Source of the DNA: Gemmatimonadaceae bacterium
GTDB lineage: Bacteria > Gemmatimonadota > Gemmatimonadetes > Gemmatimonadales > Gemmatimonadaceae
DNA: 64,000 nt
Assembly: GCA_035606695.1 (NCBI GenBank)
Contig: DATNEW010000050.1
Span: forward strand, 62,001 to 126,000
Reading direction: 5' to 3'
Shown here: piece after piece, positions 21,998 to 64,000 of the stretch
Layout of the letters: the number at the start of each line of letters is the position of its first letter
Position numbering within the stretch: the first letter of the stretch is position 1
The notes under the pieces: model-generated
The model's input: only the letters and a program-made list of their open reading frames with translations
The model's database searches: none
What the model was told of the DNA's origin: nothing
Translations under genes and position numbers: made by a program

Positions 21998-22384
21998 ATG
22001 GCCCGACAGGGACGGCGAGCGCGACCGTCGAATCAAAACAAAAAGAACCAGCGGACGGCGAAGTCCGATTACTTCATGCAACCCGGCAAGCGCGCGACGG
22101 TGATCGTTCTGCGCAAGCCGATCGGCAATCGAGCCACCGCGAAGGTCTGCGGCGTGATGCCGAGCCGGGTCCATGCGAAGATGCTGATCAATCAGCTGGA
22201 GCGCGCGGAGTCGGTCGTGAAGGATCTGTTCCTCGAGGCGACCGATGACGGCATCGAGGCGCTCGAGGCCGTGCTGTTGGCCTGCTGTAATGAAGTACTC
22301 GAACGCGGCCCAAAAGTCCGTGACGTACGGCCTGCCGAGGCTGCTGAGGGTGAGGTCGAGGAGCGGGCTGCGTCGTCAGAGTAG
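21998..22384 (+). CDS. Hypothetical protein with basic N-terminus
   Basis: A 128-residue protein, with a GGAG site before the ATG. The first 20 residues are very basic (RQGRRARPSNQNKKNQR), the middle is helical and the C-terminus is acidic (AEAAEGEVEERAASSE). It could bind nucleic acid, but no domain is recognised. Its end overlaps the convergent sigma-54 activator gene by 9 bp. Confidence 0.5.
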   Translation: MARQGRRARPSNQNKKNQRTAKSDYFMQPGKRATVIVLRKPIGNRATAKVCGVMPSRVHAKMLINQLERAESVVKDLFLEATDDGIEALEAVLLACCNEVLERGPKVRDVRPAEAAEGEVEERAASSE

Positions 22385-25590: not shown

Positions 25591-26901
25591 ATGCGACGTA
25601 TGCAGCGTGTTCGATGTGTGCAGACTGGAGCACTACTCGCCGGCGAGTGGAGGTCGGGCGTGATGGATTCGGATGGTGTGCTGCGGCATCTCGCGTTTTT
25701 CGAGGAGCTGGGGCGGATGGAGGAGACGGATGCGGGCTGGCGCTCGGTGAGTGCCGGTTTGGTGGTGATGCGTCTTGTCGATTCGTGGATAGCGGATGGG
25801 CCGACGGCGTCTCGCGTGGATTCGTGGGGTGTGAGTGCGGTGCGGGAGGCGATTGCGCAGATTGCGGAGACGACGCCGATCAAGCGGATTTTGACGTCGG
25901 TGGTGGATGTGATGGTGTCATCGACGGCGATCGATCTGCATGCGTTGTGTCCGCGGTTGATGGCGTATGGTCAGGCGTTGGAGTATGAGGCGAAGTGGGG
26001 GTTGGCGGCGGATGTGTATGGGGCGATTGTGGCGCATGCGCATCCGGTGGAGGATTCGGATTTAGCGATTGCGGCGAACCTGCAGCTCGCGTTTTGCTTG
26101 CGGACGATGGGTGAGTTGGATGCAGCCGCAACGTCGTATCAGCGAGCCACCGAAGTCGCGCACGCGGCGGGTGACATGATAGGAATACTTCGCGGCCGTT
26201 TAGGCGACGCGAAGATCGCCACTGCGCGCGGCAATTTTCCCCGCGCCGAGTCTATCCTCGAGGAGACTATCGGTCAGGCGCGATGCGAAGGGCTCGCGGA
26301 CGTCCAGTCGCGTGCGCTGATTGACCGCGCTTATATCGCCGGTCTATCGGGTCAATATGAGCGCACGATTCGTTACTCATACGACGCGCTCGCGATTACA
26401 TCGTCGAACCGTGAGCGCGATCGTATTCTGACCAACATTGCGACGGCATTTCGCTTCCTCGGCGTGCTGAAGGCAGCACGTGATGCCTATCTCGTGCTCG
26501 TCGCGACCGCGGAAGAACAATACATTCGCTGGGTCGCAGAGTTGAACTTGATGGAACTAGCAGCGCAACAACGCATCGAACTTCAGTTCGACAAATACCG
26601 TCGCGAGCTTGGGGACGCTGATCTCTCGCCGCAGCTCCGAATCATGTATCTGCTTCACGTTGGCCGGGGCTATCACGCCCTTGGAAACGCGCCAGACGGT
26701 GTGCCGTATCTGGAGCAGGCCATAGAAATGGCGTCGCGTTACGGGCTCAATCAAATGTTGTTCGAAGCTGAATCCGCGCTAGCTGATGCGCGTAGCGGTC
26801 GTCGTGTTAGTCTCGACGTCGAGGCGCCGGATCTCGACGCTGATGTTCAGGAAGTGGCTGAAGCGATACACGAAATGAGAGAGGCCGTAGCGGCCATATA
26901 A
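25591..26901 (+). CDS. TPR-repeat protein, possible mosaic
   Basis: A 436-residue soluble protein. Residues ~125-400 form TPR-like helical hairpins; the first 120 residues are helical without a named domain. ATG 25591 has AGAGGT 6 bases upstream; ATG 25663 with GGAGGT 8 bases upstream is an alternative start. Codon use changes sharply near residue 170: upstream the sense strand is strongly G+T-rich, downstream it looks like the rest of the window. Probable role is protein-protein interaction in the signalling region; nothing catalytic is seen. Confidence 0.7.
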   Translation: MRRMQRVRCVQTGALLAGEWRSGVMDSDGVLRHLAFFEELGRMEETDAGWRSVSAGLVVMRLVDSWIADGPTASRVDSWGVSAVREAIAQIAETTPIKRILTSVVDVMVSSTAIDLHALCPRLMAYGQALEYEAKWGLAADVYGAIVAHAHPVEDSDLAIAANLQLAFCLRTMGELDAAATSYQRATEVAHAAGDMIGILRGRLGDAKIATARGNFPRAESILEETIGQARCEGLADVQSRALIDRAYIAGLSGQYERTIRYSYDALAITSSNRERDRILTNIATAFRFLGVLKAARDAYLVLVATAEEQYIRWVAELNLMELAAQQRIELQFDKYRRELGDADLSPQLRIMYLLHVGRGYHALGNAPDGVPYLEQAIEMASRYGLNQMLFEAESALADARSGRRVSLDVEAPDLDADVQEVAEAIHEMREAVAAI

Positions 26902-28583: not shown

Positions 28584-31500
28584 TTAGACCGTTGCGGGCG
28601 CGTTCGCGGCGAGTGCGATCAACTCGGCGGGTGGTGGGTAGAGTTCGCGGCGGATGGTTGAGATGAATCGCTTCGCGAAGGCTTCGGCCTCGCCGGGTGC
28701 GCCGAATTGTTGGAGATAACTAGCAAAGAACGCTGCTGGTCGATCAAGCCAGTAGTCGGACGAGTCAAAAGAGTTCGACAGCGCTGACGCGATGTCACCA
28801 ATTCCGGAATGATGCGCAAGACCTAGGCGAGAGCCGAGATGCGTTGCGAGAGCTTGGGCACGAAAGCGGGTAACCGGTATCGATAGGCACATTTCGATAC
28901 TCGGTATGGTGCGCAACGCGTCATCAAACCGAGCTTCTCGGACGAACTGCGCTGCTTCGTGATGTCGCATTGTTAAGTCGATAAACAGCCTGGCCCCGTA
29001 CGCTCCAAGAGTTTGCCACGTAGGTTTAGCGGATTCGAGTAGTGCTCGGGTGTCTTCAGGAGCATCGACGTCAATGCTCACGGCCAACATATTGTCGAGG
29101 CCTGAACCCATAGCGTGGGTTAGTACAGTTCGTCTCGCGAGGTCGAACGCTTGTGACCATGCAGAACGCGCGTCGTCTAGCCGACCAGCAAAGGCAAGCG
29201 ACCGTGCGTAGATGTTCAAAGCACGTTCAACGCCGTGCACATCATCGGCCTTTCGCGCTTCCGCGAGAAGCTCTGCAGCCAACTCGCACGCTATCACCAT
29301 GCTTCCCACGCGTTCCTCAAACATGAGCCGAATTCGCAGACGGTCCCAGTTTTCGGCCGGCGAACTTGGCTCATAGTGGAGCGCGAAGTCGTTGAGTTCG
29401 TGTAATGCATCTGGGCAGACGAATGTCGCGATCTTCGTTGCCGTTCGGGCCGCGGCAAGCCGATGCTCCCGAGTAGCCCGGTTCGTTCGCACACAGTCGA
29501 GCGTAGCGGATAGCAATTCGGTCGCGCGGTCGAAGTCTGCAAGCTTCATGTCAAAGCGCACGATTTCGAGATCATCATGACCGCTGTACGAGGGATCAAC
29601 CTTGCATGCCAGCTCCCGATACTTATCGATTTCGGCAAGCGTGTCAGTCCACATTCCGGCTCGCCACATCGAATCCACCTGTAGTCGGAGCAACATCAAG
29701 TGCTCGCGCGTGTCGCCTGTGAGCCCGGCGGCACGAGCAAATGCAACCGCTGCATCTCTCAGAAAGCCCGCGCGATACAGATGCGTGGCTCCGCTAACAA
29801 TGGCCGCTCTTGCCTGTTCGGTTTGACCGGCGTCCAGCCAATGTTGAACGCTCTGCCACAACAGCAGGCAATCAGACCGCTCAGCATGTTCTTCATGGAA
29901 TGCCCGCGCGGCGTACGTGTGTAGTATTATCTTGACGCTCGATGGAAGACGGGCGAGTGAGGCATCTGCCCACAACACGTGACCGTGCATCGCTCCGATC
30001 CCATCGGTGGTGAGAATCCCAGCCGCGTCCAACTCGAGAAGGGCCTCAATCAATTCACTCTGAGTCAACCCGCTTACTTTCTGAATTCGCTCAACAGTCG
30101 CATATGTGCCCAGAAGGGCTGCCGATTGAAGAATTCGTAGTGCGTGCCGCGTCAATTTTGTCAGCGCCAACTCGATAAGTATGTTGAGCGATGGTGGTAG
30201 CATGTCAGCAGAGTTGCCGACTTTCCATTGTCGTGAAAGTTCGCGAATGAACAATGGGCTTCCGGCTGAACGGCTCGTGATCGCTTCGGCAGCCGCATGA
30301 TCTAACCCGCGATGCGACGACGACGCCGTCTGCTCAACCAATTCGCGACTCGCTGCTTCGTCCAACGGACCGATCGGAATGACTGGAAGCTCTCCGATCG
30401 GCAGCTTTTCTAACACCGGACGCAGGCTGAACATCCAGCCGATCGCCAACTCTGCGCTCGCGTCGGTAACCTGCTCCCATAGCCAGCCCGCGGACGGATT
30501 CGCCCAATGAATGTCTTCTACCTGAACGAGAAGCGGCGCCTCGAGCGCTATCGACCCGAGTAAATCCGAGAGCGCCGCCGCGATTTGAATGCGACGGTCG
30601 ACTGGATTTGAGCTGCTGACATCGAACGCCGGCTCGGGCTGGCTCACTTCGGGCTGCGTGAGTTTGCGAAGAAACGTGAGATTGGCCGGCTCGCATCCCA
30701 GTGCACCAGGCAACTCTAACAATTGCGTCAGAAGATCGATCACACCGGCGAGCGGCCGATCAACGTCGCTTCGCTGACAGCGAATAGAGACGACTACAAT
30801 GTTCGCCGCTATCGCTCGATTGCGGGCTTCTTCAAGCAGGCGGGTCTTACCAATTCCAGCGGGTCCACTGAATGCGATTGCTCCACCCTTTCCTCGACCG
30901 AGCTCCGTCAGCATTGAGTCGACGTGACGTAAATGTTCGGACCGTCCTACAAATGGCGTTTGGTCCTTCGATGAACTCGTTTCATTCTTGATCTGGTTCA
31001 GGTAGACAGCGACGCGCAGCCCCGCATGCGGAGACCTTTCACGAATTTCGGAGAGGTAGTCTTCGAGTTGTGAAATTGCTCGCTTCCGCGCACTGACTCG
31101 AACGAGCGCCTCAGCGCAGGCCAGGATCGCCGGCTCGTGCAGGGGGTCGAGGCTGAGTACCGCGTCAGCAACCGCGCGTGTCTCTGGCCACGGGCGTCGG
31201 TTGATCGCGCGCTCCAAGCGCTGCGACAAGAGTTGAATTGCCTGCGCCGTTAGCCTCGTGCGCCATTCGCCCAGCCACGACTCAAACAGCCGTGAAAATG
31301 CCGGTGCATAGCCCGAAAGGATCGCCATCTGCGGTGTGAGTTCGGACGTCCCGAGGTCATCTACATCCCACTCCACATCCTTCGTCTCGAGCGCAGCCGT
31401 CGTCGATCGCGTGTCGATTAGTACATCCATCGACCGCAACTTCGACAACAACCAGCGGAGCCGTCCAGCGCGCGTGGCGTACGGCGCGTCCGGCCACAAC

Positions 31501-31655
31501 ATCTCCGCCATCTGTTGCCGCGAGAATCCCTTCCCTCTTTCGAGCGCCAACATCAACAGCGCCGCAAACACCATCTCCGCGCTCGGCTCCACGCGCCGGT
31601 CACCAACATAGATGACCGCGCGGCCAAGCATCTCGACGCGTACACGAGCAGACAT
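28584..31655 (-). CDS. AfsR/SARP-like regulator: BTAD, AAA/STAND ATPase and TPR
   Basis: A 1023-residue protein. Residues 1-90 are a winged-helix-like DNA-binding region (RVRVEMLGRAVIYVGDRRVEP), then a bacterial transcriptional activation domain to ~220. Residues ~235-500 are an AAA/STAND ATPase with Walker A GPAGIGKTRLLEE near residue 264 and a Walker B-like LLVQVEDIHWAN. The rest is helical TPR-like. It is likely a signal-integrating switch that binds DNA after ATP-driven assembly. It is encoded opposite to the two-component genes and shares a terminator with them. Base composition is a little lower in GC than the housekeeping flanks. Confidence 0.82.
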   Translation of the reverse strand: MSARVRVEMLGRAVIYVGDRRVEPSAEMVFAALLMLALERGKGFSRQQMAEMLWPDAPYATRAGRLRWLLSKLRSMDVLIDTRSTTAALETKDVEWDVDDLGTSELTPQMAILSGYAPAFSRLFESWLGEWRTRLTAQAIQLLSQRLERAINRRPWPETRAVADAVLSLDPLHEPAILACAEALVRVSARKRAISQLEDYLSEIRERSPHAGLRVAVYLNQIKNETSSSKDQTPFVGRSEHLRHVDSMLTELGRGKGGAIAFSGPAGIGKTRLLEEARNRAIAANIVVVSIRCQRSDVDRPLAGVIDLLTQLLELPGALGCEPANLTFLRKLTQPEVSQPEPAFDVSSSNPVDRRIQIAAALSDLLGSIALEAPLLVQVEDIHWANPSAGWLWEQVTDASAELAIGWMFSLRPVLEKLPIGELPVIPIGPLDEAASRELVEQTASSSHRGLDHAAAEAITSRSAGSPLFIRELSRQWKVGNSADMLPPSLNILIELALTKLTRHALRILQSAALLGTYATVERIQKVSGLTQSELIEALLELDAAGILTTDGIGAMHGHVLWADASLARLPSSVKIILHTYAARAFHEEHAERSDCLLLWQSVQHWLDAGQTEQARAAIVSGATHLYRAGFLRDAAVAFARAAGLTGDTREHLMLLRLQVDSMWRAGMWTDTLAEIDKYRELACKVDPSYSGHDDLEIVRFDMKLADFDRATELLSATLDCVRTNRATREHRLAAARTATKIATFVCPDALHELNDFALHYEPSSPAENWDRLRIRLMFEERVGSMVIACELAAELLAEARKADDVHGVERALNIYARSLAFAGRLDDARSAWSQAFDLARRTVLTHAMGSGLDNMLAVSIDVDAPEDTRALLESAKPTWQTLGAYGARLFIDLTMRHHEAAQFVREARFDDALRTIPSIEMCLSIPVTRFRAQALATHLGSRLGLAHHSGIGDIASALSNSFDSSDYWLDRPAAFFASYLQQFGAPGEAEAFAKRFISTIRRELYPPPAELIALAANAPATV

Positions 31656-54856: not shown

Positions 54857-56971
54857 ATGCCCTCCCGTCGTTCTCATCGACAACGAACACCACCCGAAGC
54901 CGATCGGCCGAGTCGAGTCGCGATCATCGGCGGCGGCTGTGCCGCGCTAACGACTGCCTTCGAGCTCACGCGTCCCGAGCTCGCCGGCCAGTTCGAGGTC
55001 ACGGTGTATCAGATGGGCTGGCGACTTGGCGGCAAAGGCGCGTCGGGGCGCGGCAAGCACGACCGCATCGAAGAGCACGGCCTCCATTTGTGGATGGGCT
55101 TCTACGAGAACGCATTCCGTTTGATGCGCGAGTGCTATGCCGAGCGGGCGGCGGACGGTGTCGAGCGTCGACTGAATGACTGGCGCGAGGCGTTCACACC
55201 CGCGCACGACGTCGCGGTCGTCGATCGCACGCGCGATGGCACCTGGGACGCGTGGCTCGCGCAATTTCCCTGCGGACGCGGTCTGCCCGGCGATCCGATC
55301 GAGAGCGGCAGCCCGTTCACGATCGCGAATTACTTGCGTCAATCGGCGTCGCTGCTCGCGGCGCTGCTTCGATCCGCACAGCCGAAAGGCACGACACCCT
55401 CGCTCTCGGGATTCGGCCAGCTCGCGGCACTCGGCGGCATCGTCGAGGCGGTGGAGACGCTGCTCGTGCTGCTGGATACCATGGCGCCCGAGCCGGTCTG
55501 CGCGGCGATCGACACGCAAACCCGGCTCATCGAATCGATCGCGGCCGTCGCGCGCCGGCAGCTCGAGGCGCTCGTCGATCGCGATCCGGCGCTGCTCCGC
55601 GTGTGGCAAGTCGCCGACATCATTCTGGCGATTCTGCGCGGCTCGACCGTGCATGGGCTGGCGTTCGATCCGCGCGGCTTCGATGCGTTGAATGACTACG
55701 ATTGGCGCGAGTGGCTGATGATGCACGGCGCCTCACAACGCTCGGTCGACTCCGGTTTCATGCGCGGCATCTACGATCTGGCTTTCGCCTTCGAGGACGG
55801 CGACGTCAATCGCCCGAGCCTGGCCGCCGGCGTCGCTCTCCGCGGCGCGATGCGCATGTTCTTCACCTACCGCGGCGCCCTCTTCTGGCGGATGAGCGCC
55901 GGCATGGGCGACGTCGTCTTTTCGCCGCTTTACGAAGTGCTCAAGCGCCGCGGCGTGCGATTCGAGTTCTTTCATCGCCTTCGAAATGTCTGTCTCTCGC
56001 CCACGAACGCACCCGGCCTCCCCTATGTGGACGCGCTCGAGCTCGACGTGCAGGCGAAAATCAAATCGGGCGGCGAGTATCAGCCGCTGGTCGACGTTCA
56101 CGGCGTGCCATCGTGGCCCGCCGAGCCGGATTACGCGCAGCTCGCGAATGGTGCGACGCTGCAGCGCGAGCGTCGAATGTTCGAGGCGCATTGGGACGAG
56201 CGGCGGGTCGGACGCAAGACACTTCGCGTCGGCACCGACTTCGACTTCGTCGTGCTTGGCGTGAGCATTGGTGCGATTCCGTACGTGGCGAGCGAGCTGC
56301 TGGCGCGCAGTCCGCGCTGGGCCGACATGGTGCGTCACGTGAAGTCAGTGCCGACGCAGGCACTCCAACTCTGGGTTCGCGCCGACGCGGCACAACTTGG
56401 CTGGCCGCATCCGCCGATCAACCTGTCGGGATTCGTCGAGCCGTTCGATACCTGGGCCGACATGTCCCATCTCATACCGGAAGAGAGCTTTTCCGAGGAT
56501 GTTGGTTCGGTCGCGTACTTCTGCAGTGTACTGCCGGACGCGATCCCACCGGACGGCGTCACGGAGGAGTTCGCGCGCGCGCAGCGCGCGAAGGTTCGAC
56601 AGAACGCAATCGATTTTCTTGATCGCGACGTCCGCGAGATCTGGCCGAATGCATGCAATGCAAACGGTGGATTCGATTGGTCGCTCCTTGCCGGTTCGAC
56701 TGCGCGGGGAAGCAAGGCGATCGACAGCCAATACTTCACTGCTAACGTAAATCCGAGCGACCGATACGTCCTTTCCCTGCCGGGGAGTTCGAGGTATCGT
56801 ATCTCCCCGCTCGACTTGACGTTCGACAATCTCACCATCGCCGGCGACTGGACCGCGTCCGGACTCGACTCGGGTTGCATCGAGTCGGCCGTGATGTCGG
56901 GGCGGCTGGCGGCACACGCACTCTCGCAGCATCCGCCGCTCGAGGAAATCGTCGGATACGATCATCCTTGA
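54857..56971 (+). CDS. FAD-dependent oxidoreductase, carotenoid-desaturase/hydroxysqualene-dehydroxylase-like
   Basis: About 704 residues from ATG 54857. After a basic lead comes a dinucleotide-binding fold (RVAIIGGGCAALTTAFELTR), the MGWRLGGKGASGRG loop and EEHGLHLWMGFYENAF, all typical of phytoene/zeta-carotene desaturase-like enzymes. The C-terminal FAD motif is NLTIAGDWTASGLDSGCIESAVMSG. Length exceeds the ~480-550 of most members because of a large helical insertion (residues ~140-270). It likely oxidises or isomerises a lipid or isoprenoid. It is followed by a polyprenyl synthase two genes downstream. An in-frame reading from 54746 covers the regulatory gap. Confidence 0.75.
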   Translation: MPSRRSHRQRTPPEADRPSRVAIIGGGCAALTTAFELTRPELAGQFEVTVYQMGWRLGGKGASGRGKHDRIEEHGLHLWMGFYENAFRLMRECYAERAADGVERRLNDWREAFTPAHDVAVVDRTRDGTWDAWLAQFPCGRGLPGDPIESGSPFTIANYLRQSASLLAALLRSAQPKGTTPSLSGFGQLAALGGIVEAVETLLVLLDTMAPEPVCAAIDTQTRLIESIAAVARRQLEALVDRDPALLRVWQVADIILAILRGSTVHGLAFDPRGFDALNDYDWREWLMMHGASQRSVDSGFMRGIYDLAFAFEDGDVNRPSLAAGVALRGAMRMFFTYRGALFWRMSAGMGDVVFSPLYEVLKRRGVRFEFFHRLRNVCLSPTNAPGLPYVDALELDVQAKIKSGGEYQPLVDVHGVPSWPAEPDYAQLANGATLQRERRMFEAHWDERRVGRKTLRVGTDFDFVVLGVSIGAIPYVASELLARSPRWADMVRHVKSVPTQALQLWVRADAAQLGWPHPPINLSGFVEPFDTWADMSHLIPEESFSEDVGSVAYFCSVLPDAIPPDGVTEEFARAQRAKVRQNAIDFLDRDVREIWPNACNANGGFDWSLLAGSTARGSKAIDSQYFTANVNPSDRYVLSLPGSSRYRISPLDLTFDNLTIAGDWTASGLDSGCIESAVMSGRLAAHALSQHPPLEEIVGYDHP

Positions 56972-57010
56972 GTCGTCATCATCTCCAACCGAGCTGCCCA
57001 CGAGGCGCAC

Positions 57011-57934
57011 GTGCCGTCCAAGCGAAGGAAGCGTACGCCGCCTGAACGCGGTGGTCCCAGGCGATCGAGCGCGCAGCCGGCGACGCCCGAAGAGAAGCGC
57101 AGCGGCAGAGAGACGAGCAACACCAGCGACACCGACAGCAAAAATGATTCGCGGCACGAGCGCGACTACAGCTATGGTCGCGCGGTCGATCGCGGACTCG
57201 AAGCCGCGCGGCGCGTCGTCGATGGAGTCGTCGGCGCGGTCGATGCAACGACGCGCGGTGCAGTCGAGCGCGGGGTGGAAACCGCATACGCGGTGGTCGA
57301 TGAGTACATGCGCCGCGGCCGAACGGCCGCGAGCCAGCGACGCAACGGAAATTCCGGGAATTCCGGGAACCCCGTGAATTACGGGAACTTTGGGGGAGGC
57401 AGCGTGGGACACCAACACGGCGGGTATTCGACGGGCGGCGGCGGCGCGGGCAACGGCGGCGGTCCGTTCAACAGCGGCGGAGGACCATGGGGCGGGGGCA
57501 ACATGTCGTCGAACCCGATGTTCGCGCCGTGGATCCAGATGATGCGCATGTGGACCGACAGCATGATGGCCTTCATGCCCACCGGCGCACCGAATCCGTT
57601 CGCGATGTGGACGGGCGCGGCCCAGCCTCGACCCGCGATCGCGGTGCGCACGGCATCGGTCAATCCCGCCGAGGTCACCGTGACTCTCGATGCGGGCGCG
57701 GAATGGCTGCTGCTGCGCGTCGACGCATTAGAGAATCCTGATGAGCCGGGCGCGTCATCCATTGCCGCGCCGACGATCACGTGCGAACCGGGCCGCGTCA
57801 GCGTGCACGTGAGCGTGCCGGCGTCGCAAACCGCCGGACACTACCACGGCACCATTCGCGACTCGGGCGGCGTGCGCCGCGGCGAGTTGTGCGTGGACGT
57901 CGAGGCGCCGCGGTCGGCCGGCGTGCCCGTTTAG
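57011..57934 (+). CDS. Gly-rich protein with helical amphipathic and beta-sandwich parts
   Basis: A 307-residue protein from GTG 57011. Order: basic disordered start (1-50), an amphipathic helical stretch (RAVDRGLEAARRVVDGVVGAV and on to ~100), a Gly/Asn-rich linker (105-160), a Trp/Met-rich helix (NPMFAPWIQMMRMWTDSMMAFM) and a C-terminal beta-sandwich (~205-300). The middle parts recall phasin-like granule-surface proteins, but no family is firmly recognised. It lies between the oxidoreductase and the polyprenyl synthase genes, so it may anchor or scaffold the pathway on a lipid or granule surface. Confidence 0.6.
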   Translation: MPSKRRKRTPPERGGPRRSSAQPATPEEKRSGRETSNTSDTDSKNDSRHERDYSYGRAVDRGLEAARRVVDGVVGAVDATTRGAVERGVETAYAVVDEYMRRGRTAASQRRNGNSGNSGNPVNYGNFGGGSVGHQHGGYSTGGGGAGNGGGPFNSGGGPWGGGNMSSNPMFAPWIQMMRMWTDSMMAFMPTGAPNPFAMWTGAAQPRPAIAVRTASVNPAEVTVTLDAGAEWLLLRVDALENPDEPGASSIAAPTITCEPGRVSVHVSVPASQTAGHYHGTIRDSGGVRRGELCVDVEAPRSAGVPV

Positions 57935-57941
57935 AGCCCGA

Positions 57942-58985
57942 GTGGCCACCGCGTCGGCTCCGATACGCGATCTCGTTCCGTCGCTGCTTCGCGAGTACGG
58001 CGAAGCGACGCGGTCCATTCTCTTTACGTATCTGCCTCGCAGCGAGCCCCGGCGCTACCTGTACGATCTCGCCGCCGACTATCCGCTGCGCGGCGGCCGA
58101 GCGTTTCGTCCGACACTGTGCATCGCGACCGCGCGCGCGTTCGGCGCGCCGATCGACGCCGCGGTCCGCACCGCCGCGTCGATCGAGATGATGCACAACG
58201 CCATGCTCATCCACGACGACATCGAGGACGAGAGCGAGGAGCGTCGCGGCCGCCCGACGATGCACCGCAACGAAGGCGTACCGCTCGCGATCAACGTCGG
58301 CGATATGCTCTCGCTGTTGGCGCTCCGTCCGCTGATCGACAATCGCGCGCTTCTCGGACCGCAGCTCGCGTTTCGCATTCTCGAAGAGACCGAGCGCATG
58401 GCGCGCGAGTCTGCCGAAGGGCAGGCGTTGGAGCTGGGCTGGCGTCGCGACAACGTCACTGACGTCGCCGAAGCGGACTATCTCGCGATGGTGCTCAAGA
58501 AGACCTGCTGGCTCGGCATGATTCACCCGAGCCGCGTCGGCGCGCTGATCGGATCGCACGGCGACCTCGACGCCGACGCCTGCATTCGCTTCGGCTTCTT
58601 CCTCGGCGCCGCGTTTCAGATCCAGGATGACCTGCTCAACCTCGTCGGCGACGCGACCGCATACGGCAAGGAACTGAGCGGCGACATCTGGGAAGGCAAG
58701 CGCACGCTCATGCTCATTCGCCTGTTGGCGCTGGCCGCCGACGACGAAGGCTCCCGCATTCGCCACGTGTTGTCGCTGCCGCGACCGGAGCGCTCGCTCG
58801 GCGACGTGCGATGGATTCGGTCGCGCATGGACTACTACGACTGCATCGACTACGCGCGGCAGGTGGCGCAGGGGCTCGCCGGCGCGGCGCATCACGAATT
58901 CTCGCTGCTGTACGATCACCTGCCGGACTCGCGCGACAAGCGGTTCATCGAAGCACTACCGACGTGGGTAATCGAGAGGAACTAA
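57942..58985 (+). CDS. trans-Polyprenyl diphosphate synthase family protein
   Basis: A 347-residue all-helical isoprenyl diphosphate synthase, GTG start 57942, 7 bp after the previous stop. First Asp-rich motif DDIED at residues 92-96. The second motif reads QDDLLN (residues 229-233), with Asn in place of the last Asp of DDxxD. It should join IPP to allylic diphosphates; residues before the first motif (NAMLIH) are compatible with a C15-C20 product, but this is weak. It is coupled to the ADC-like gene, which begins 3 bp after its stop. Confidence 0.9.
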   Translation: MATASAPIRDLVPSLLREYGEATRSILFTYLPRSEPRRYLYDLAADYPLRGGRAFRPTLCIATARAFGAPIDAAVRTAASIEMMHNAMLIHDDIEDESEERRGRPTMHRNEGVPLAINVGDMLSLLALRPLIDNRALLGPQLAFRILEETERMARESAEGQALELGWRRDNVTDVAEADYLAMVLKKTCWLGMIHPSRVGALIGSHGDLDADACIRFGFFLGAAFQIQDDLLNLVGDATAYGKELSGDIWEGKRTLMLIRLLALAADDEGSRIRHVLSLPRPERSLGDVRWIRSRMDYYDCIDYARQVAQGLAGAAHHEFSLLYDHLPDSRDKRFIEALPTWVIERN

Positions 58986-58988
58986 CGC

Positions 58989-61900
58989 ATGAAAGACGAT
59001 TCTTCGTTGCACCTGCCGCGCTTCAGCGTGCCGCAGGGAAGCGACTATTCCCTCTCGATCAAGCCGCCCTTGTCCTTTAGCGGCGTCACCAACCTCGTCT
59101 TTCCGCTGCGCGCCAGCCTCGATGCGTTGCAGCAATTCTGTAACAACTATCTGAACATCATTCCGCGCGAGCTCGGCTACTTTCGCGTTCCGATGCCGTA
59201 CGTCTATCTCATGCTGCTCGATTACGGGCGCATGGCGATCGACGTCGCAAACGTCGGGTGGCTCGCCCAGCGCGAAGTGTTCTTCTGCGTGCCGCTGGAG
59301 TGGTACCGCTACGTGAACGGCCGCTGGGTCTTTCACGACTGGGCGTCGATCTGCCCGTTCATCTACGTCGACGACGATCTGTCGATGGCCACCGGCCGCG
59401 CGGTGTACGGCTGGCCCAAGTCGCCGGCGAAGATGACGCCGACGGTGAGCGACTGGATGACAGATCCCACGTCGCCGATCACCGAAGCGTCGCTCAGCAC
59501 GCCGGTGTTCCCCGAGCTGTACGCGGGCGACAAACCGGAGCAGCGCGTCTTCCTGGAGATTCAGCGCCAACGCGCGCCGTCCATGCTGCGCATGCCGCCG
59601 ACCGGCGCCGGCCCGATGACGCCATGGCGCATGGCGACCAACGTGGCCGAAGCGATCGCGGGCTACGGGCGCGACGCCGTCGGGATGATGGCCGGCCTCG
59701 GCATCATGCCGATGCACCCGGGCTCCAGCGGCGACAATTACCTCGCCATGATGACGCGCATGATGCAGATGGGCTTTCCCATGCGCCCCAACATCGTCGC
59801 GAACACGCTCAACCTGAAGCAATTCAGGTTATCCGAAGATCCCAGCCGCTTCGCGTTTCAGGCACTGACGAACGGCCCCATGCACTACACGTCCTTCAAT
59901 CGCGCGGGCGCGCTCGGCGAAGAGCGAATTCTGCTCGGCGACTCGTCGGCGGGGTTTACGGTCAAGCTCTATCAATGGCCGTCGCTCCCGATCGTCGAGA
60001 CGCTCGGCCTCGCGGTCGATCGCAAGTGGCGCGGCGCCGGCGTGGACGTCGTCGAGATCAAGCCGGTGCTGCCGTTCTGGTACGACGTGAACATGACGTA
60101 CTTGCCGGGCTACAACATCGCCTGGCGGAGCCGCGACAGCGCGTGGCACGACGAGCACGACAAACCGGTCGCGCCGTCCACGTCGACCAAGATCGCCATG
60201 CCCGCGCTGTTCAACACCACGCTGGGCGCGGGGAACAAGGCGGTCGCCGGGCCGTTCCGATTCTCGAATACTACAATTAGAACACTCCCGCTGCTCGCCG
60301 ATCGCGAGACGCTGTCGCGGTTCATCGCCGAGTACCTGAACGCGCCGTTGGAGGAAGGCCGGGCGGCATACCGCTTCTCCCTCTGGGCCGGCGATGCGCC
60401 GAGCCGGTTCGCCTACGTGTACTTCACGGCGACGACATACGGCGACGTCACCTCGGGCACGGACAACATCGGCGATTGGGCGGACGCCGAAGTCGCGCTG
60501 CTCGTGCCCGTGCAGTGGGTCAAGGTCGACGGCGCCAAGGGCGAACAGTCGCTCGAGGGCGTCGGCCTCGTTCCGGTATTCACCTTTCTCGATACGGCCA
60601 CCGCGGCGAACGCGCGATCCGAAGTGCTCGGCATTCCGAGCACGATCGCAAAGTTCGCGCGGCAGCAGAGTGCGTGGCTGGGCGACAACTCGCCGCACGA
60701 AGGCGGACAGGAAACGCTCCTGCACGTCGGCACCGAGATTCTGCCCGCGGTCGGCGAAGGCCAGAAGGCCTCGCGGCGCGGGATTCTGGAGGTCATCGTC
60801 GGCGAAGCGGCGTCGGACTCGAATCCGGTCGAGTGGCGCGACGTCGCCGATCGCTGGGGCTCGATGCTCAAGCTCGAGCTGCTGCGCAAACGCGCCGCGG
60901 CGGGCAAAGACGCCGCGGGTCGGCCGGCGAATGAGGAGCGCCGAGCCACGTTCGACGCGGCCCGCGCGTTGTCGCTCGAGCTGCTCGGCAATCGCGTCCC
61001 CTTCTCGATCTACACGCTCAAACAATTCCGCGACATTCGAGACGCCGATCGCTCGTGCTATCAGTCGATCGTTCGAGTGCACCGTACACTCGATGAAATT
61101 CTCGACCTGCGCGAGATCGAAGCTCCGCTCCGCATTCGCATTCATGAATATCCGACCCAGCCGCTCGTCTCGCTGCTCGGACTCGTGGCGCGTCCGGTCG
61201 ACGGCAAGGGCGGCGTGACGTACATGGTGCAGCCGGTGCGGCCATTCTGGATGCGTGTATCGATGTCGGAAGCCTTAGGTGAGTTGATGCTGCATCGCGC
61301 GGCCGATGACCAGTGGCATTTGCCGAAGCGCGAGCCACAGGACCCCGATCAACCCGGCACGGCGATGCCGGCGAAGTCGTATTTCGACGGAACGTCTACG
61401 ACGCCCGGCGTGGGCGTCGGTGCAACATGGCTCCAGGATCACGCTGATCCACGCCGGCTCGCCGACGCGGCGATTCAATGGCGCACACACACGTACTCGG
61501 GCGCCGGCCAGAATCTCACCGTCGACGAAGCACGCGCCGCGGTGCGCGCGATCGATCCGCAAGCCGTGATCGAGTCGATTCTTTCGGGCGAGTGGGGAAA
61601 CTGGAACCGAAAAGCACGCTGGCTGCGCCGCCGCACCGAGCTTCGCCAAAAGCTCGAGCAGGATACGGTCGGCATGGAAGGCGTGTATCTCGCGCATCAG
61701 GAGCTCGCGGTCCTGCAGCAGATCGTCGACAACTCCAAGTCGGCGCCGGGCAAGGAGCCGGCGGACGATCGCTTGGCGTTGCTCAAAGCGCTCGAGCCGA
61801 TCGTCGATCTTCGCACGACGATCGAATCCGGTTGGGAGAACCTGTTTCGACTCGGCAAACAGATCGACAAGTTCCAGACGACGCACTCGCCGGACGATCA

Positions 61901-62432
61901 ACCGAAGATCGCGGAGGCGCACGACGCCGCGCGCAGCATGCTGGACGGTCTCGTCGCCATGGAAAACGACGCCGTCGGCGCCGCGGCGAAGCTGAAGGCG
62001 TTCGTTCGCCTGGAGTCCGTGCCGTCACAGCCGCGCCTGCACGAATTGAACGCGCACTTCGCTCCGCTGAGCGCGATGATCGACGCGGCGGGCGACGATC
62101 TCGCCAAGTGGTGGCAGATCGTGCTGCTGATGTGGAAGGAAGGCGATCTGCTGCGCGAAGCGATCGCTCTCGCGCGCGATCGGTATCTCTATTGGCGCAA
62201 CGTCGTGCTCGACGTGCTCAGTCGCGACGCGCAGAAGCCGGAGTTCGTCGTCACGCGCACCGCCGCGGGCACGGAAGCGGACCGCGTGTTTCCGCTACCG
62301 CAGTCGTGGGACGAAGATTGGTATGCGGGCGAGCCGGCAAATCAGTCGTGGGGACACGATCACGATTCAGACGCGGCAGGCGGGGCACCGCATCCCAACA
62401 CCGGCATTCCGCAACCGACTGACCAGGCGTAA
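58989..62432 (+). CDS. Giant protein with two tandem acetoacetate-decarboxylase-like domains
   Basis: A 1147-residue protein. Two related domains are visible. Landmarks in domain 1: FRVPMPYVYLMLLDYG, CVPLEWYRYV, AVYGWPKSPAKM with K144, and LYQWPSLPIVETLGL at 327. Domain 2 repeats them: APSRFAYVYFTATTYG, LVPVQWVKV, EVLGIPSTIAKF with S551, and HEYPTQPLVSLLGL at 719. The lysine that would form the Schiff base is present only in domain 1. Residues ~830-1120 are long helices. No signal or membrane segment. Possible role: decarboxylation of a beta-keto lipid or an aldol-type step in the same pathway as the adjacent polyprenyl synthase and oxidoreductase. Confidence 0.72.
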   Translation: MKDDSSLHLPRFSVPQGSDYSLSIKPPLSFSGVTNLVFPLRASLDALQQFCNNYLNIIPRELGYFRVPMPYVYLMLLDYGRMAIDVANVGWLAQREVFFCVPLEWYRYVNGRWVFHDWASICPFIYVDDDLSMATGRAVYGWPKSPAKMTPTVSDWMTDPTSPITEASLSTPVFPELYAGDKPEQRVFLEIQRQRAPSMLRMPPTGAGPMTPWRMATNVAEAIAGYGRDAVGMMAGLGIMPMHPGSSGDNYLAMMTRMMQMGFPMRPNIVANTLNLKQFRLSEDPSRFAFQALTNGPMHYTSFNRAGALGEERILLGDSSAGFTVKLYQWPSLPIVETLGLAVDRKWRGAGVDVVEIKPVLPFWYDVNMTYLPGYNIAWRSRDSAWHDEHDKPVAPSTSTKIAMPALFNTTLGAGNKAVAGPFRFSNTTIRTLPLLADRETLSRFIAEYLNAPLEEGRAAYRFSLWAGDAPSRFAYVYFTATTYGDVTSGTDNIGDWADAEVALLVPVQWVKVDGAKGEQSLEGVGLVPVFTFLDTATAANARSEVLGIPSTIAKFARQQSAWLGDNSPHEGGQETLLHVGTEILPAVGEGQKASRRGILEVIVGEAASDSNPVEWRDVADRWGSMLKLELLRKRAAAGKDAAGRPANEERRATFDAARALSLELLGNRVPFSIYTLKQFRDIRDADRSCYQSIVRVHRTLDEILDLREIEAPLRIRIHEYPTQPLVSLLGLVARPVDGKGGVTYMVQPVRPFWMRVSMSEALGELMLHRAADDQWHLPKREPQDPDQPGTAMPAKSYFDGTSTTPGVGVGATWLQDHADPRRLADAAIQWRTHTYSGAGQNLTVDEARAAVRAIDPQAVIESILSGEWGNWNRKARWLRRRTELRQKLEQDTVGMEGVYLAHQELAVLQQIVDNSKSAPGKEPADDRLALLKALEPIVDLRTTIESGWENLFRLGKQIDKFQTTHSPDDQPKIAEAHDAARSMLDGLVAMENDAVGAAAKLKAFVRLESVPSQPRLHELNAHFAPLSAMIDAAGDDLAKWWQIVLLMWKEGDLLREAIALARDRYLYWRNVVLDVLSRDAQKPEFVVTRTAAGTEADRVFPLPQSWDEDWYAGEPANQSWGHDHDSDAAGGAPHPNTGIPQPTDQA

Positions 62433-63612: not shown

Positions 63613-64000
63613 TCAGGCGGGCATGGAGACGGAGTCGCCGGCGACCAACGCGTCCAGCGTCGTGCGCAGGTCGCGCAGCTCCGGACTGTCGCGGCCTTCG
63701 GTGAACCACGCGTCGAGCGGCTCGAGCAACGCACGGGCTTCGTCGCGCTCGCCGGCGTTGGCCAGCATGCGAGCGAGCAGCAGCGCCGCACGCAACTCGA
63801 GCAATCGGGCGCCCTGTCCGCGCGCGATGTCGATCGCCGCGCGGAAGCTCCGTTCGGCGTGCTCCGTGTTGCCGAGCCCCAGCTCGATCTCACCAATGTT
63901 GCGGTGGAATTCGGCGGTGTAGTAGAGCTCGTCCTGCTCGCCCGCGATACGGAGCGCGGTCCGCAGAGAATCCAACGCGGCTTCGGGGTCGCCGGCGGCG
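63613..64000 (-). CDS. C-terminal part of a TPR regulator (start beyond the window)
   Basis: The frame is open to the window edge; only the last ~129 residues are seen. They are TPR-like hairpins (EFHRNIGEIELGLGNTEHAERSF, ALLLARMLANAGERDEARALL) ending in LDAWFTEGRDSPELRDLRTTLDAL. That ending is typical of the C-terminus of large AAA/TPR regulators and class III cyclase-like proteins. The full architecture lies to the right. It lies 31 bp upstream of the saccharopine-dehydrogenase-like gene. Confidence 0.65.
   Translation of the reverse strand, partial: AAGDPEAALDSLRTALRIAGEQDELYYTAEFHRNIGEIELGLGNTEHAERSFRAAIDIARGQGARLLELRAALLLARMLANAGERDEARALLEPLDAWFTEGRDSPELRDLRTTLDALVAGDSVSMPA

Follow-up and report, generated by a model that had tools for sequence, protein, structure and literature searches.

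A conserved bacterial gene cluster joining a polyprenyl diphosphate synthase, a desaturase-like flavoenzyme and a tandem acetoacetate-decarboxylase-like protein: a candidate polyprenoid pathway

Gene content of the locus

The locus described here lies in a 64,000-nucleotide stretch of DNA from a Gemmatimonadaceae bacterium (the window, positions 62001-126000 of contig C50), whose genome assembly measures 5.9 Mb and is 99% complete. Four plus-strand open reading frames follow one another, separated by 39, 7 and 3 bp, in the order flavin adenine dinucleotide (FAD) enzyme, P0002, polyprenyl diphosphate synthase (PPS) and acetoacetate decarboxylase (ADC)-like protein. Their coordinates match the four co-directional, tightly spaced genes reported in an earlier inspection of the letters alone (the sequence-only reading). 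Among the gene families named in that reading, the desaturase-like FAD enzyme, the polyprenyl synthase and the tandem ADC stood, and the Gly-rich granule label of gene 2, for which no family match was found, is weak. The cluster had also been closed too early, at position 62432, since the same locus continues on the minus strand with a saccharopine-dehydrogenase (SDH)-like reductase and a cyclase-AAA-TPR regulator. Features of the locus are collected in Table 1.

Table 1. Genes and domains of the cluster, in window coordinates (AF2, AlphaFold2; pLDDT, per-residue AF2 confidence).
Feature	Position	Strand	Basis
FAD enzyme P0001, 704 aa, amine-oxidase fold, related to zeta-carotene/phytoene desaturase and HpnE	54857..56971	+	Pfam, NCBIfam, alignment
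Two-part small protein P0002, 307 aa	57011..57934	+	Homologues in loci, AF2
Gly-rich linker of P0002, aa 119-165	57365..57505	+	Gaps in most homologues; pLDDT mostly <50
C-terminal beta-sandwich domain of P0002, aa 209-297	57635..57901	+	pLDDT mostly >=95
Trans-polyprenyl diphosphate synthase P0003, 347 aa	57942..58985	+	PF00348, Asp-rich motifs
Tandem ADC-like protein P0004, 1147 aa	58989..62432	+	PF06314, AF2, Foldseek
ADC domain 1, ~aa 1-400 (Lys144 codon 59418-59420)	58989..60188	+	Lysine conservation, 4zbo alignment
ADC domain 2, ~aa 415-775, lysine lost	60231..61313	+	Self-similarity 25%, alignment column
C-terminal helical domain of P0004, ~aa 800-1110	61386..62318	+	AF2 secondary structure, length classes
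SDH-like NAD(P) reductase, 404 aa	62367..63581	-	PF03435
Class III cyclase-AAA-TPR regulator, 1068 aa	63613-66819 (C-terminal part in window, 63613..64000)	-	Pfam, reading past window

P0001 has the FAD amine-oxidase fold (PF01593, 2e-11; PF13450, NAD_binding_8, 9e-10). Its best NCBIfam scores are with HpnE (4e-17), zeta-carotene desaturase (ZDS, 8e-11) and phytoene desaturase (PDS, 4e-6), and the best PDB match of the FAD-enzyme profile is plant phytoene desaturase 5mog (6e-5); the likeness to carotenoid desaturases that had been proposed is thus seen in both searches. Only profiles gave such matches, the PDB sequence searches with P0001 alone or P0004 alone returning none. The equivalog cut-offs were not reached for PDS (TIGR02731, 25.7 of 569 bits), ZDS (TIGR02732, 41.6 of 622 bits) or the hydroxysqualene dehydroxylase HpnE (TIGR03467, 62.6 of 283 bits). 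With plant/cyanobacterial-type PDS and ZDS and with HpnE, the cluster enzyme has in common its fold and an N-terminal signature of the GGK...GLHxxxGxYxNxFRLM type, and the GWRLGGK/EHGLH region is invariant in a 49-member alignment. It differs from them in its length (~700 aa versus 430-475 aa), in scoring far under their cut-offs and in having ADC-like domains, and not phytoene or squalene synthase, as partners in its pairs and fusions. From this kinship it is natural to infer that the substrate would be an acyclic isoprenoid, a likely trait in common with these enzymes.

P0003 matches PF00348 at 8e-54 (182.9 bits against a curated cut-off of 27 bits), and both Asp-rich motifs, D92-D93-D96 (DDxxD) and D229-D230 (DDxxN), are present and invariant, which bears out its assignment as a trans-polyprenyl diphosphate synthase. 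The residue at position -5 relative to the first motif is Ala. In this family, Ala at that position speaks against a C15 product and suggests a chain of C20 or longer, the exact length not being fixed by sequence. P0003 belongs to the same polyprenyl synthase family as the polyprenyl-transferase cargo of family 2 encapsulins (NF041169). However, its score of 160.4 bits is far under the 450-bit cut-off of that model and no encapsulin shell gene adjoins the cluster; the cargo reading was rejected. A PF19307 encapsulin search across the genome returned empty, as did its control, and is therefore no evidence of absence.

The PF06314 match of P0004 is marginal (3e-7, 30.6 versus a 29.8-bit cut-off) and covers residues 57-153 only. 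The second half of the protein aligns to the first with 25% identity (E 2e-21), and the AlphaFold2 model (pTM 0.81) matches crystal structures of the ADC superfamily in Foldseek at 2e-9 to 1e-5 with a best probability of 1.00, namely Legionella ADC (3c8w), the Sbi00515 aldolase-dehydratase (4zbo/6eej) and MppR (4jm3). The earlier description of a giant tandem ADC-like protein is thereby upheld. Lys144 of domain 1, which aligns with the GFPKKL motif of 4zbo, is present in 38 of 38 members, its neighbouring residues are also invariant, and each of the 14 single-domain or fused ADC-like proteins examined retains an equivalent lysine; Lys144 is the putative Schiff-base lysine. The equivalent column of domain 2 holds S, T, A, C or M, never K, and the earlier proposal of ADC chemistry accordingly finds support in the first domain and not in the second. 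P0004 has the fold and the putative Schiff-base lysine of domain 1 in common with the ADC superfamily; it differs in its tandem domains, its lysine-less second copy, its helical C-terminal domain (found in the longer members only and missing from shorter homologues) and in its operon partners, which are a prenyl synthase and an FAD enzyme.

In the AlphaFold2 model of P0002, the N-terminus is disordered and is followed by a helix of 60 residues, a flexible Gly-rich linker and a C-terminal beta sandwich, the last predicted with confidence and carrying the conserved motif VPxxQPxGxYxGxIVD. Homologues of P0002 occupy the interval between FAD enzyme and PPS in 54 loci. The Gly-rich stretch to which the granule label referred is a low-confidence linker private to the window lineage that most homologues are without, and none of 44 members had a relevant Pfam match at E 0.05, phasin, PhaE and granule models included; identity as a phasin was rejected, and that of a polyhydroxyalkanoate (PHA) granule protein has no family support. 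A fold search with P0002 gave no significant PDB match, for the beta sandwich either, and points to no function. P0002 resembles PHA granule proteins in having a helical region followed by other domains and in its suggested surface role, and is unlike them in that none of 44 members has a Pfam match. The maximal hydrophobic moment of its helix is reached by only 0.65% of shuffles, and the protein may serve at a surface or as a scaffold.

The nature of P0002 and P0004 bears on an alternative in which the tandem ADC-like protein would for the most part carry or scaffold a hydrophobic intermediate without catalysis, the cluster forming a membrane- or droplet-associated assembly line. The lysine lost from domain 2, the large helical C-terminal region of P0004 and the high hydrophobic moment of the gene 2 helix are all compatible with it. 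However, the strict invariance of Lys144 and its neighbours, kept in all single-domain partners, argues for catalysis by domain 1, and we consider a mainly carrier role improbable.

Conservation of the cluster and of the FAD-ADC pair

A scan for relatives of the FAD enzyme, with one genome per species, retrieved 79 loci, of which 67, the locus of the window not among them, were close (>=43% identity) and 12 distant (<43%). A PPS gene is present in 64 of the 67 close loci, and the three exceptions (L028, L056 and L068) stop at contig ends. It lies downstream on the same strand in 57 of them, at a median distance of 809 bp. ADC-like genes are found in 45 of the 67. The genes are thus kept together in other genomes, which is the comparison on which the sequence-only reading had staked its gene set, and chance adjacency was rejected. 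The FAD enzyme, gene 2 and PPS make up an invariant core and the four-gene order is a real unit, although its ADC member is not universal.

The SDH-like reductase is convergent to the four genes, with its 3′ end overlapping that of the P0004 gene by 66 bp, and the regulator (Guanylate_cyc, 2e-22; AAA_16, 2e-18; TPR) lies 31 bp upstream of it on the same minus strand. Both had been missed when the set was limited to four genes, and both recur beside the cluster elsewhere: SDH reductase homologues in 24 of the 67 close loci and cyclase-type regulators in 40, with serine/threonine-kinase-type relatives, judged from their sequences, near other close loci. Reductase and regulator thus belong to the locus. 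Short-chain dehydrogenases/reductases (SDR) of the HpnA/OleD/SdmB kind were found in 20 close loci. Because SDR and SDH occur together in two loci only (Fisher p 0.005, for loci that are not independent), they look like alternative redox partners.

The close loci are spread over Gemmatimonadota, Acidobacteriota, Myxococcota, Binatota and Pseudomonadota. In a tree of FAD enzymes, every PPS-linked enzyme falls into one group (support 99), inside which the five phyla are intermixed; the window enzyme is placed among Gemmatimonadota (support 97). Within that phylum, only 6 of 298 sampled genomes hold an FAD relative, which apart from the window is a close one in a single case. Distances among FAD enzymes, PPSs and ADC-like proteins covary (r 0.70-0.81, 0 of 999 permutations), a correlation that in part reflects shared ancestry. 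The PPS of the cluster shares 52-75% identity with its counterparts in clusters of other phyla, but no more than 31% with the two other synthases from the same genome that align with it. Because of the patchy presence within the phylum, the covarying distances and the closeness of the PPS to cluster enzymes elsewhere, the cluster fits an accessory unit that would move as a block and spread horizontally. Phylum mixing alone is no proof of transfer, since some record titles and bins are uncertain.

Around distant FAD enzymes the picture is different: a PPS is found in only 1 of 12 loci, and the enzymes stand beside single ADC-like genes or are fused to them. Fused frames in the order FAD-ADC are present in L069 and L097 and also in Archangium and Pyxidicoccus (L102, L103), and the reverse order, ADC-FAD, in L070. 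Since fusions occur in both orders, they are strong evidence that the FAD enzyme and the ADC-like protein function jointly. Their pairing appears to predate the association with the prenyl synthase.

Several individual arrangements may be mentioned here. In a sister arrangement without PPS, two to three FAD enzymes of the cluster family accompany a single ADC-like gene (L096, L091/L094, L090/L095 and L072); this is possibly a second undescribed system. One example, on plasmid p4 of Azospirillum argentinense (L096, 7908-14606), has a FadL-type outer membrane gene in between and an AAA ATPase beside it. In a Bryobacteraceae locus (L062, 9986-13048), a cluster-family FAD enzyme is fused to DUF2515 and adjoins an ADC-like gene and a kinase-type regulator. 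In a Thermoanaerobaculia locus (L044, 5362-9980), a pair of adjacent tandem ADC-like proteins is encoded upstream of the FAD gene. On a Qingshengfaniella plasmid (L097, 7305-14019), the FAD-ADC fusion is followed by a cyclase-domain protein and then by a Crp/Fnr regulator, which suggests a cAMP-type control circuit for the pair at this locus.

A candidate polyprenoid pathway and its alternatives

We interpret the locus as a horizontally spread polyprenoid biosynthetic cluster in which a prenyl chain of C20 or longer would be built, dehydrogenated and then subjected to Schiff-base carbon-carbon chemistry, and we give this reading a probability of about 0.5. PPS would make a prenyl diphosphate of C20 or longer, and the FAD enzyme, of the carotene-desaturase/HpnE kind, would dehydrogenate or otherwise oxidise the chain. 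The ADC-like protein may then work on a carbonyl intermediate via a Schiff base on Lys144, in a decarboxylation or an aldol-type making or breaking of a bond, with domain 2 as a presumed non-catalytic partner. An NAD(P) enzyme, SDH-like here and an HpnA/OleD-like SDR elsewhere, would adjust the redox state; the two-part gene 2 protein may act as a surface adaptor or scaffold, while sensing or control of the pathway may fall to the cyclase-AAA-TPR protein. In favour of this account are the near-constant presence of PPS, the single well-supported clade of PPS-linked FAD enzymes, the covarying distances, the fusions in both orders, the invariant Lys144, the ZDS/PDS/HpnE-type signature of the FAD enzyme, the intact Asp motifs, the alternation of SDR and SDH and the closeness of the PPS to cluster synthases of other phyla. 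Gene content, conservation, fusions, domain folds and the conserved lysine are thus observed, and the substrates, the sequence of reactions, the product and the scaffold role are inferred from them. The chemistry sketched earlier (make a chain, oxidise it, decarboxylate it or carry out an aldol step) is a plausible candidate.

Some observations weigh against this interpretation. In many Myxococcota the ADC gene is missing near the cluster, and mostly genome-wide too, and the ADC step therefore cannot be one that the core requires. Some FAD-ADC pairs stand in loci lacking a prenyl synthase, and their substrate therefore need not come from PPS. Finally, there is the contribution of shared ancestry to the mirror-tree correlations noted above.

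The kinship of the FAD enzyme to ZDS, PDS and HpnE would also suit a carotenoid- or squalene-like pathway whose C30/C40 synthase is encoded elsewhere, the FAD enzyme being a carotene-type desaturase, PPS supplying extra geranylgeranyl or farnesyl diphosphate, and ADC and SDH proteins tailoring the end groups. As the sequence-only reading had stated, no phytoene synthase lies beside the cluster; a single squalene/phytoene synthase gene was found on another contig of the genome, which also encodes three polyprenyl synthases besides that of the cluster, and this distant gene is a point in favour of such a pathway. However, the FAD enzyme scores far under the ZDS and HpnE cut-offs, and the neighbour families of the 79 loci include no recurrent squalene/phytoene synthase or cyclase, which leaves this alternative unlikely. 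Like hopanoid (hpn) clusters, the present cluster has an HpnE-like FAD enzyme, and some of its members carry an HpnA-like SDR as well; HpnC/HpnD and squalene-hopene cyclase are not encoded in it. An ordinary carotenoid or hopanoid cluster was rejected, there being no squalene/phytoene synthase in the cluster and none recurrent near the 79 loci. A terpene cyclase family search across the genome returned empty, and so did its control, so that it does not show absence.

Degradation, and not synthesis, is the theme of a further alternative, a system for the uptake or catabolism of hydrophobic compounds from outside the cell: a FadL-type channel would import them, the FAD enzyme and ADC-like protein would degrade them, the regulator would sense them, and PPS would have a side role. 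FadL/OMPP1 genes near L013, L026, L054, L058 and the Azospirillum plasmid locus L096, the large sensor ATPases nearby and an ADC and SDH chemistry compatible with breakdown all agree with it. FadL genes are, however, rare (four close loci by clustering, two by tblastn), while nearly all close loci have a prenyl synthase whose Asp motifs are intact, and we regard a catabolic role as improbable, on a par with the carrier role of P0004.

The biosynthetic interpretation allows a bolder and clearly more doubtful version, namely a lipid pathway of at least five phyla in which the FAD enzyme and the tandem Schiff-base ADC might convert a polyprenyl diphosphate to a new class of polyprenyl ketones or aldehydes, with a cyclase-type sensor ATPase dedicated to its control. 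The discovery of isoprenoid lipids, for example hopanoids, carotenoids and quinones, has mostly started from the product. In the present case, genes have stayed together across phyla, with core enzymes at more than 50% mean identity, and no product or name was found for the set; it is thus a pointer to a bacterial lipid that perhaps still awaits isolation. No description of the set, which had been said to match no known pathway, was found in the open-access literature or among Pfam and NCBIfam models, a search outside which subscription journals, MIBiG and antiSMASH lay. The cluster, its conservation and the FAD-ADC partnership thus appear undescribed, all the enzyme families being already known, and a role is offered for unusual ADC-like proteins and for an unassigned branch of desaturase-like flavoenzymes. 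Named or type strains with the cluster include Sulfitobacter mediterraneus DSM 12244, Rhodopila globiformis DSM 161, Archangium violaceum Cb vi76, Polyangium fumosum DSM 14668 and Minicystis rosea DSM 24000.

Other features of the window

A scan for a promoter or terminator upstream of the FAD gene gave none, and shuffled sequences likewise gave none. Elsewhere in the window, the G+C content drops to 59% between positions 26000 and 32000, compared with ~65% in other parts, and this stretch contains a minus-strand gene (28584-31655, 1015-1023 aa) that by sequence resembles a large transcriptional regulator. Between positions 22000 and 26000, a strong GC skew (0.20-0.34) extends across minus-strand genes that by sequence seem to encode pilins or secretion pseudopilins and a regulator of the NtrC type.

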